Source: Streptomyces pacificus (GTDB lineage Bacteria > Actinomycetota > Actinomycetes > Streptomycetales > Streptomycetaceae). From it: a DNA stretch of 64,000 bases. This document shows positions 57,335 through 61,561 of this stretch, in pieces; within the stretch, counting starts at the first letter, position 1; every line of letters begins with the position of its first letter. The position numbers and the translations under genes are program-made. Location: positions 434,001 to 498,000 of the forward strand of contig NZ_BLLG01000003.1 in the NCBI RefSeq assembly GCF_011766325.1. The letters are read 5' to 3'. The notes under the pieces are model-generated. The model was not told the origin of the DNA, searched no databases, and saw only the letters and a program-made list of their open reading frames with translations.

Positions 57335-58765
57335 GTGACGTCCCGTAACCTGCGCGACTCCAGGCTCCGTCTTGTCCGCCCCCGGCCCACCGCCACGGCC
57401 CCCCGCACCGCGACGAACAGGCGCACGCGCCCCGCTCCGCGCCCGCCCGAGGGAACCCCGCCCACCGCGGAGCTGGCCGCCGAGGCACGCGAGGTCCTCG
57501 CCGACGCGGTGCGTGTCGCCCGCTGGGCGGCCGCCCGTCAGGCCGAGGGCAGCGCCGCGGACCGGGACCGGGCCGCAGGGGACCTGCGCCTGACACCGGG
57601 ACAGGTCCACACGGGATGGGACCGGGCCCGGCTCGCCGGGCTCGTGGAACTCCACGGGGGCACGGCACGCCCCGGCTGGCGGCTGAACGCCTGGGACCGG
57701 GACGACACCGCCGTACTGCGCGGCTGGGTCGCCCTCTTCGACGCCTGGCCCCTGGTGCGCTCCGCACCCGCCGGTGTGCCGCCCGGCGCCGTGGCCGAGG
57801 CGGTGGAGGCCGTCCCCCAAGTGCTCTCGCTCCTCCAACTGTCCGCCGGGCCCGTGCTCCTGCCGGCCCTGCTCGATCTCCTCCGGCAGCGGGTGGCGGA
57901 ACTGCGCGAGGAGCGCTGCGAGGTGCCCTACGGGCCCGGGCAGGCCGACGCACCCACCGGGGCCCCCACCGCTGCAGCAGCCCCTGCGGGGGCCCCCGCA
58001 GGGGCTGCCACCGACGCGGCCGACGCGGCCGGCCCGCCCGAGGGCGTACTCCCCGCCCTGCTCGACTGGGCCCTGGAAGGCCTCGCCGCCGTCGGCGCGC
58101 TGACCCTCGGCGAGGACCACGCCACCCTCACGCCGCTCGGCAACTGGGCCGTGTGGGTCAAGCTCGAGCAGATCTGCGTCGCCGCCCAGAGCCCCGCGGG
58201 CCACATCGAGCAGTCCGCCGAGGAGATGCTGCGGGGCTGCGCCCGGCTCAGCCCCGGCCCCGCCCGCGCCGAATACCGGGCCTGGCTCGCCGCCCGCGCG
58301 GTCTCCAGCGCGGTCACCGAGCTCGTGGCGGCCGCCCGCGGTGAGGACGCCCTGCTGCGAGGACTGGCGTTCGAGGCACTCCGCGTCGTGGGTGCGGCCG
58401 CCGAGGCCGATGTCCGCGCCGCCGCCAATGAGCCGTCGCTGCGCCCCTACGCCCTGCTGTGGCTGGCCGAGTACGAGGGAGCCGATCCCGACGACGCCGC
58501 CGAGGCGCTCACCCGGGAAGAGGCGACCTGGCTCTGGGTGGACACCGCAGCCGCCGTCGCCGACCACGGCGAGAGCACCCTGCTGGTGCGCCATCTGGAC
58601 GCCGCGGTGCAGGGCACCGTCCCCGCCCTGCTCGACGAGGTGCGCGCCGTCGGCCATCCGCGCACCGTGCAGGTCCTGGTCGCCCTCGCGGCCGCGCACC
58701 CCGACCCGGCCCTGGCGAAGGCCGTCAGGCGGGCGGCGTTCCAGGTGCACACCGGCGGTTCCTGA
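57335..58765 (+). CDS. hypothetical protein, related to the one at 31234-32688
   Basis: 476 aa from GTG 57335. The N-terminus is basic (RNLRDSRLRLVRPRP..). Landmarks match the other protein: AVRVARWAAA near residue 69, LTPLGNWAVWVKL near 263-275, then a helical HEAT-like half ending AHPDPALAKAVRRAAFQVH. A low-complexity Ala/Thr/Gly/Pro stretch lies at ~205-230. Cytoplasmic, function unknown. Its stop codon is embedded in a 56-nt perfect palindrome that must end transcription. Confidence 0.8.
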   Translation: MTSRNLRDSRLRLVRPRPTATAPRTATNRRTRPAPRPPEGTPPTAELAAEAREVLADAVRVARWAAARQAEGSAADRDRAAGDLRLTPGQVHTGWDRARLAGLVELHGGTARPGWRLNAWDRDDTAVLRGWVALFDAWPLVRSAPAGVPPGAVAEAVEAVPQVLSLLQLSAGPVLLPALLDLLRQRVAELREERCEVPYGPGQADAPTGAPTAAAAPAGAPAGAATDAADAAGPPEGVLPALLDWALEGLAAVGALTLGEDHATLTPLGNWAVWVKLEQICVAAQSPAGHIEQSAEEMLRGCARLSPGPARAEYRAWLAARAVSSAVTELVAAARGEDALLRGLAFEALRVVGAAAEADVRAAANEPSLRPYALLWLAEYEGADPDDAAEALTREEATWLWVDTAAAVADHGESTLLVRHLDAAVQGTVPALLDEVRAVGHPRTVQVLVALAAAHPDPALAKAVRRAAFQVHTGGS

Positions 58766-58815
58766 CCGGGGGGCTCCGGCCCGCCCGCGGGCGGGCCGGA
58801 GCCCCCCGGTCAGGA
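58760..58815. terminator. 56-nt perfect palindrome overlapping the stop codon
   Basis: Two 28-nt halves (58760-58787 and 58788-58815) are exactly complementary with no spacer. The TGA stop (58763-58765) lies in the left arm. It separates the hypothetical gene from the ABC-F transcript, whose -10 is only 28 bp further on. Probable intrinsic terminator without U-tract. Confidence 0.8.
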
Positions 58816-58842
58816 CCACGAAAACCGGTTGCCCGGCCCCGG

Positions 58843-58848
58843 TAGACT
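58843..58848 (+). promoter_or_regulatory. -10 element of the ABC-F leader transcript
   Basis: TAGACT (TAnnnT) ends six bases before the ATG of the 7-codon leader ORF, which places the transcription start at or beside that ATG. No convincing -35 is visible. Confidence 0.6.
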
Positions 58849-58854
58849 GGCCGC

Positions 58855-58878
58855 ATGGCAATTCTCCTCATGGATTAG
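58855..58878 (+). CDS. 7-codon leader peptide MAILLMD upstream of ABC-F gene
   Basis: ATG GCA ATT CTC CTC ATG GAT TAG. Too short for normal gene calling. It lies directly at the predicted transcription start and 64 bp before the ABC-F start. The spacer can pair GACGGCG (58879-58885) with CGCCGTC (58914-58920). Short leader ORFs control several antibiotic-resistance ABC-F genes by ribosome stalling; here that role is inference. Confidence 0.5.
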   Translation: MAILLMD

Positions 58879-58942
58879 ACGGCGTCGAAGCATCCGCGCG
58901 CCCGTCGTCCTTCCGCCGTCCCATCCGTCCTGGAGTCTTTCC

Positions 58943-60541
<1,599 letters not shown>

Positions 60542-61339: not shown

Positions 61340-61561
61340 GTGGCCGAGACTCTGAAGAAGGGCAGCCGGGTAACCGGCGCCGCGCGCGACAAGCTCGCGG
61401 CAGACCTGAAGAAGAAGTACGACTCCGGTGCGAGCATCCGGGCGTTGGCCGAGGAGACCGGCCGCTCCTACGGATTCGTCCACCGGATGCTCAGCGAGTC
61501 CGGAGTCACGCTGCGTGGACGCGGCGGGGCGACGCGGGGCAAGAAGGCCGCTTCGACCTGA
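61340..61561 (+). CDS. helix-turn-helix domain-containing protein
   Basis: 73 aa from GTG 61340, chosen because GAGGAGG precedes it; the open frame extends further upstream. Basic N-terminus (ETLKKGSRVTG), then LAADLKKKYDSGASIRALAEETGRSYGFVHRMLSESG, a resolvase/MarR-like helix-turn-helix, and a basic tail (RGRGGATRGKKAA). Small DNA-binding proteins of this kind are highly conserved in Streptomyces; the role is unknown. Confidence 0.85.
   Translation: MAETLKKGSRVTGAARDKLAADLKKKYDSGASIRALAEETGRSYGFVHRMLSESGVTLRGRGGATRGKKAAST

Follow-up and report, generated by a model that had tools for sequence, protein, structure and literature searches.

We found that an ABC-F gene of Streptomyces pacificus is probably controlled by a translational attenuator whose sensor is a leaderless open reading frame (ORF) of seven codons. 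The gene, probably of the OcrA/PoxtA-like type, lies in a stretch of 64,000 nucleotides of contig NZ_BLLG01000003.1 (positions 434,001 to 498,000), called the window below. Sequence comparison supports this reading through the geometry of the -10 box and the leader, the conserved reading frame of the leader, the covariation between the leader and the Shine-Dalgarno (SD) sequence of the gene, and the recurrence of the same layout with other bases elsewhere. From this layout we infer the transcription start, the translation of the leader, the drug signal and the feedback on the switch.

The -10 box TAGACT is located at 58843-58848, and six bases separate it from the leader ATG at 58855 (all elements of the leader and the ABC-F gene are on the forward strand). 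The leader ORF, ATGGCAATTCTCCTCATGGATTAG (58855-58878), encodes MAILLMD followed by a stop codon and is probably leaderless, as judged from its sequence and its conservation. Between this stop codon and the GTG start of the ABC-F gene at 58943 lie 64 nt. These positions agree with the original prediction, which had placed TAGACT six bases before a 7-codon ORF followed by a 64-nt spacer. In the window, ATGGCNATTCTCCT is found a single time, whereas none of 100 shuffles contains it, and the region 58854-58960 folds more stably than its shuffled versions (z = -2.84; 2 of 200 shuffles were as stable). A scan of 58700-59000 against Rfam gave five matches up to E = 1, all under the gathering scores. 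On the upstream side, a perfect inverted repeat with two 28-nt arms and no loop (58760-58815) is located at the end of the preceding 476-aa ORF, for which no Pfam or NCBIfam match was found up to E = 0.001. On the downstream side of the ABC-F gene, a small HTH_58 protein is encoded at 61340-61561.

The assignment of the downstream gene (58943-60541, 532 aa) to the ABC-F family was borne out by profile searches. Pfam ABC_tran matches the protein in two stretches, corresponding to two ABC domains, and the ABC_tran_Xtn linker was found at residues 230-304 with 28.3 bits (cut-off 25.9). The NCBIfam model NF000355 (ribosomal protection-like ABC-F) was passed narrowly, with 383.9 bits against a cut-off of 380, and this model is poorly selective: another ABC-F protein of the same genome scored 381.8 bits, and 8/14 control genomes contained matches. 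The best PDB match is PoxtA, which like OcrA is an ABC-F protein of the phenicol/oxazolidinone type. Taken together, the profile and PDB matches suggest that the gene probably encodes a ribosome-protection factor of the OcrA/PoxtA-like type. A match to the protein was found in 41/41 genomes of the genus sample, 61/61 of the family sample and 140/148 of the class sample (E up to 1e-150 for the class; the samples overlap).

A relation to OcrA is suggested by the 66% identity between the ABC-F protein and its match in Mycobacterium-like genomes, together with the gene order. In two Mycobacterium-like genomes, read by eye, a thioredoxin-like gene, a crotonase-like gene, the ABC-F gene and a small HTH gene follow each other, and the OcrA neighbourhood was compared by way of the order of Rv1471-Rv1473A. 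In the window, the ABC-F gene is followed by the HTH_58 gene and then by the crotonase gene. The HTH gene after the ABC-F gene is thus common to both, whereas the crotonase gene is placed before the ABC-F gene in the Mycobacterium-like genomes and downstream of it here; the Mycobacterium-like genomes also differ from the window in having no called leader. For Rv1473, an action on oxazolidinones and phenicols and the name ocrA have been proposed (PMC9159947), and its M. abscessus relative MAB_2736c was reported to affect linezolid susceptibility (PMC13041422).

The reading frame of the leader is conserved in relatives, so that a missing conservation of the frame, which the original prediction had named as a refutation, does not apply. 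We called a leader where a TANNNT box stood 4-8 nt before an ATG or GTG that opened an ORF of 3-12 codons plus a stop, at most 200 nt from the ABC-F start. With this rule, leaders were found at 56/58 Streptomycetaceae loci, compared to 0.40 expected from shuffled upstream regions (the loci come from 60 of 101 genomes searched, mostly the best 30 per search and not a random draw, with L029 and L030, near contig ends, left out). The rest of the class gave 28/78 loci with a leader, compared to 0.82 expected from the same kind of shuffling (78 of the 129 genomes with a match, mostly best-scoring, with L117 left out), and no leader was called in the other 50, the Mycobacterium-like ones included. 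All 18 loci of a paralogue, which is about 63% identical, had a leader (0.17 expected from shuffled upstream regions). Fewer than one leader was therefore expected in each of these groups. Of the 20 loci fetched for the paralogue, the remaining two, L153 (truncated, 81% identical) and L154 (full, 90%), are second copies of the ABC-F gene itself, and no leader was called there. Likewise, the five other ABC-F genes identified in the same genome have no such leader within 250 nt of their assumed starts.

Larger samples gave a similar picture. With a 260-nt search window, a leader was found at 126/128 Streptomycetaceae loci. Among the named loci, 71/77 with a start found had a leader, including those of S. 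lincolnensis and S. lavendulae (77 of 80 loci were counted; L175, L208 and L236, where no start was found, were left out). The pattern TAGANT-N6/7-ATGGCNATTCTCCT was present in 163/295 Streptomyces genomes, and its reversed control occurred 0 times among the matches listed.

The spacing between the box and the start codon was 6 or 7 nt in all 102 called leaders, though 4-8 nt were allowed. Since transcription usually begins at this distance, the geometry of box and start indicates that the first bases of the mRNA probably comprise the leader start codon. At one locus with no called leader, L047, TAGACT-N6-GTG coincides with the ABC-F start, which gives the impression of a gene that has itself become leaderless. 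Among the 78 class loci, a TANNNT box is located 5-8 nt before the ABC-F start in 5 (1.8 expected) and 5-12 nt before it in 20, a count without a chance estimate.

Upstream of the -10 box, we identified a conserved element, GAAAA-n4-TTGCCC (58820-58834), with 8 nt between TTGCCC and TAGACT. Of the 126 Streptomycetaceae leaders, 101 have a TTGC that starts exactly 14 nt upstream of the -10 box, and 96 have GAAA within -32 to -15 of the box. The published WblC motif consists of GAAAWY, 3 bp, TKGMNN, 16-19 bp and TANNNT, and in most S. coelicolor WblC promoters transcription is described as starting 7-8 bp after the -10 element (PMC7157823). We rejected a WblC-type promoter at the leader in the window: GAAAA-n4-TTGC is similar, but it stands 8 nt from the -10 box instead of 16-19. 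Written as a loose expression, the motif fits the paralogue promoters in 9/18.

Conservation of the peptide MAILLMD itself did not hold. It is rare, with 2 of the 126 Streptomycetaceae leaders, where MAILLAH (44) is the commonest and MAILLVH accounts for 14; MAECHTHV, MAVCHDHR and MDIPFLVA are counted among the 126 and may be unrelated ORFs. Peptides differ between families, and those of other clades are unrelated: MSTPRIS (paralogue), MMPVAD, M[HRS][TA]PD, xxCEx, VPSVRTP and singletons. Within the Streptomycetaceae, residue 2 is Ala in 120/126 leaders, the middle base of the Ala codon, unpaired in the consensus structure, is C in 124/126, and an in-frame stop at codon 8 was found in 115/126. 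The leader stop codon (58876-58878 here) is TAG in 124/126 and TAA in two, and it lies outside the conserved helix described below.

These counts bear on the possibility that only a structured 5' end is selected, for mRNA stability or for masking of the SD as a temperature or autoregulatory element, and that the short ORF is incidental. Nucleotide-level covariation does account for part of the leader conservation. We nevertheless consider this explanation highly improbable, since the start codon stands 6-7 nt from the box in 102/102 called leaders, the in-frame stop is at codon 8 in most Streptomycetaceae leaders, and both TAG and the unpaired middle base of the Ala codon are almost constant.

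Despite their differing peptides, the leaders have in common a tendency to complement the SD region of the gene that they precede. The duplex between a leader and its own SD was -13.2 kcal/mol, compared to -10.2 (sd 0.5) after swapping among 18 clades, which were grouped by hand from the peptides, and 0 of 20,000 permutations reached this value. With a sliding 20-nt window, the excess peaked at -24 to -5 (z = -5.0; large clades thinned to 8), and it was absent in windows between -48 and -21 and inside the coding region. For clade A (Streptomycetaceae) alone the swap test was weak, with -11.3 for the own SD and -11.0 for the SDs of other clades. For two clades, L071 (rank 18) and L116 (rank 16 of 18), most SDs of other clades paired better than their own.

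Furthermore, RNAalifold, run unprompted on 46 leaders, predicted a helix between the leader and the translation start of the gene. Specifically, the partners of leader nt 1-4 are the two bases preceding the ABC-F start codon and the first two bases of that codon, nt 6-7 pair with -4 and -5, and nt 10-13 (CUCC) pair with GGAG. In the window, the 5' arm of this conserved helix lies within leader nt 1-13 and includes the leader start codon (58855-58867), and the 3' arm (58932-58944) extends from the SD GGAG (58932-58935) into the GTG start codon, of which it includes the first two bases. The paired cells amounted to 96.7%, compared to 91.8% in shuffles and 32-51% in slid versions, and the covariation score was 0.115 compared to 0.042 in shuffles; the ATG columns (nt 1-3) are invariant by the leader-calling rule, and the shuffles ignore relatedness. 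Two of five pair measures were not above shuffles (double-change pairs 258/500, further pair types 86/500). The alignment contains 46 of the 51 leaders available from the named loci, restricted to MA or MP and to a limited length, a selection that partly fixes bases 4 and 5 and leaves bases 6 and 7 free.

Compensatory changes were found at these two positions. Of 114 8-codon leaders whose second residue is A, V or P, 58 have C-G at nt 6 and base -4, 31 have A-U, 6 have U-A and 19 are unpaired there. Nt 6 falls on the wobble position of codon 2, so that peptide-silent GCC/GCA changes are accompanied by base changes upstream of the ABC-F start. When mapped on a tree of 109 ABC-F genes, joint changes of nt 6 and base -4 fell on six branches compared to 1.38 expected (P = 0.0004); four of these branches lead from A-U to C-G and two lose pairing. 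For nt 7 and base -5, four such branches were found compared to 1.57 expected, which is borderline (P = 0.054). A subset with a single SD register contained 81 loci, 43 of them distinct. Comparative analysis thus gives good support to leader-SD pairing in the Streptomycetaceae, with compensatory changes at two pairs.

The paralogue repeats this leader-SD layout with other bases, as seen by comparing its 18 loci (L141-L152 and L155-L160). Its leader ORF is very uniform (MSTPRIS, MSTPRVS or MSLPRIS) and begins 6-7 nt from a TANNNT box. Leader nt 7-16 are predicted to form a helix with the SD of the paralogue itself, and three compensated pairs occur in the 18 sequences; one of these positions has A-U in 8 sequences, G-C in 7 and no pair in the remaining 3. 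The spacer between leader and gene contains further paired stretches in the paralogue.

The original prediction had named a different structure, a GACGGCG/CGCCGTC stem near the ABC-F start. This stem is present here, with GACGGCG at 58878-58884 and CGCCGTC at 58914-58920, inside a 13-nt inverted repeat that is 85% complementary, but it is absent from the consensus structure of the 46 relatives. We therefore rejected it as the key element; the conserved helix instead runs from the leader ORF to the SD.

The position of the conserved helix also bears on whether the leader acts by transcription attenuation, intrinsic or Rho-dependent, with the SD pairing being secondary. Such a mode was proposed for are5sc and tiaA, both of which have uORFs (PMC12421871), and amino-acid genes of S. 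lividans have leaderless leader peptides upstream (PMC8079986). For the intrinsic form, however, we found no terminator-like site in 58700-59100, and the helix ends on the SD and the start codon, with no U-tract. Transcription attenuation thus appears very unlikely to be the main mode of control. The covariation and the consensus fold both predict sequestration of the SD by leader RNA, as expected for a translational attenuator.

To what extent occupation of the leader would free the SD was computed by masking the leader. In 110 8-codon MA leaders, GGAG of the vacant leader had a mean unpaired probability of 0.02 and was leader-paired at 0.94; with 25 nt more coding sequence, the values were 0.06 and 0.84. 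When the leader was masked, GGAG was still mostly paired elsewhere, with an unpaired probability of 0.20-0.25 (0.15-0.16 with more coding sequence), but the folds concerned were weak. In five of six examples, the whole fold was about -6 kcal/mol masked compared to -27 to -33 unmasked, and the masked fold with more coding sequence was -13 to -16 kcal/mol. The cost of opening the SD and start was 10.7 kcal/mol in Streptomycetaceae and 12.2 kcal/mol in the paralogue, and masking lowered it to 6.3 and 5.9 kcal/mol, respectively. The drop was clear in clades A, B, D, F and L066, and there was none in 7/20 clades (P = 0.066 against a control mask, 20 clades), and the vacant leader was costlier to open than a shuffled one in 10/20 clades (P = 0.108). 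Over 20 clades, the mean unpaired probability of the SD was 0.43 for the vacant leader, 0.50 with the leader masked and 0.46 with a control mask (P = 0.032); in clade A it rose only from 0.45 to 0.47. The pairing is thus well supported, and release of the SD by a ribosome occupying the leader is plausible, though the models do not predict it uniformly.

The same helix and anatomy would be expected under plain translational coupling, in which translation of the leader unzips the SD on every transcript and the output is constant or growth-linked, following leaderless (70S) initiation with no drug sensing. The variation of the peptides between clades is also what one would expect if only the passage of a ribosome matters. 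However, the helix encloses the start codon of the leader itself and would thereby depress steady translation of the leader, and Ala2 and TAG have been retained even though neither the middle base of the Ala codon nor the stop belongs to the conserved pairs. In addition, reported ABC-F uORFs respond to drugs (PMC12421871, PMC10201436). We consequently regard coupling without drug sensing as unlikely.

The conserved Ala points to candidate inducers of the proposed attenuator. Linezolid and chloramphenicol were reported to stall ribosomes best with Ala in the penultimate position (PMC8987054). The prevalence of Ala2 in the leaders, these Ala-dependent stalls and the link to ocrA rank phenicol- and oxazolidinone-like drugs as the first candidate inducers in Streptomycetaceae. 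Ala, Ser or Thr follows residue 1 in 15/18 clades, as judged by eye, and is absent from xxCEx, VDMIRLE and VLLLD. As a general phenicol signal, Ala/Ser/Thr was rejected, given these three exceptions and a count made with no base-rate control, and the Ala argument is accordingly limited to Streptomycetaceae.

In the translational attenuator that we favor, transcription would start with the A of the leader ATG or with a neighboring base, and the mRNA would begin with a start codon usable by a 70S ribosome without an SD. In the absence of drug, a ribosome would load on the emerging 5' end, cross the seven codons, terminate and leave, and the vacated RNA would close, hiding the SD and both start codons. 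If a peptidyl-transferase drug or another early elongation block kept ribosomes on the leader, they would cover the 5' arm. Given the size of the ribosome footprint, the arm should be covered wherever the ribosome stands in the 24 nt of the ORF, so that the SD would be open and ABC-F would be made. An arrest peptide would then not be needed, which fits the turnover of peptides between clades. The ABC-F protein could in turn free the stalled ribosome and close its own switch. Among the points against the attenuator are the uneven computed release of the SD and the 50/78 class loci with no called leader; moreover, with the leader start codon in the helix, the closed state should block new initiation on the leader.

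With a conserved leader and a sequestered SD, both supported by computation, the layout would work like translational attenuation. In erm and cat systems, the SD behind a leader ORF is sequestered and is opened by a drug-stalled ribosome; classical erm/cat leaders have their own SD and depend on the stall position. In contrast, any occupied codon should cover the arm here.

Control of ABC-F genes by uORFs is already known, as are leaderless leader peptides before amino-acid genes. For cplR of Clostridioides difficile, transcriptional and translational attenuation with a sequestered SD has been described (PMC10201436). In S. coelicolor, the uORFs of tiaA and are5sc were toeprinted, and the tiaA transcriptional reporter was constitutive (PMC12421871). 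These systems resemble ours in having a short uORF before an ABC-F gene, where a ribosome held on the uORF frees expression (PMC10201436, PMC12421871). Unlike in cplR and tiaA/are5sc, the uORF here would begin at the first base of the mRNA with no SD of its own and would itself be the anti-SD strand, and no terminator was found. At the level of the leader peptides, those given for tiaA and are5sc (MVGDDDISG, MLV, MRS) differ from the present ones (PMC12421871). In S. lividans, the leader ORFs trpL, leuL, ilvL, thrL and metL are described as transcribed leaderless and as attenuators with regulatory codons, several with terminator-like structures (PMC8079986). They share a leaderless leader ORF with our system, whereas here there is no terminator and the leader pairs with the SD.

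We found no report of the present leaders in the open PMC literature, a result that does not establish their absence from print. A search of this literature for six leader peptides returned only papers that were unrelated by their titles and the starts of their abstracts, and the word "leaderless" does not occur in the ABC-F uORF papers PMC10201436, PMC8546547 and PMC12421871.

More tentatively, the leaders might represent a widespread actinobacterial class of switch. The SD and start of the main cistron and the opening codon of the leaderless mRNA would be locked together, and the leader would read ribosome occupancy, whatever the peptide or the stall site. If true, the layout would be kept while the peptides and the paired bases are replaced, in several clades and in the paralogue. 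Such a switch would report drug-stalled ribosomes as well as the supply of 70S ribosomes that start leaderless mRNAs. Under the proposed attenuator, synonymous changes at leader wobble positions should alter ABC-F expression, and a second change just upstream of the ABC-F gene should restore it. This reading also suggests a systematic look for leaderless uORFs. If the attenuator is true, Streptomyces and its relatives would have a drug-response switch with neither an SD for the uORF nor a fixed arrest peptide, which would explain how a conserved OcrA/PoxtA-related ABC-F gene is expressed at a low level until it is needed.
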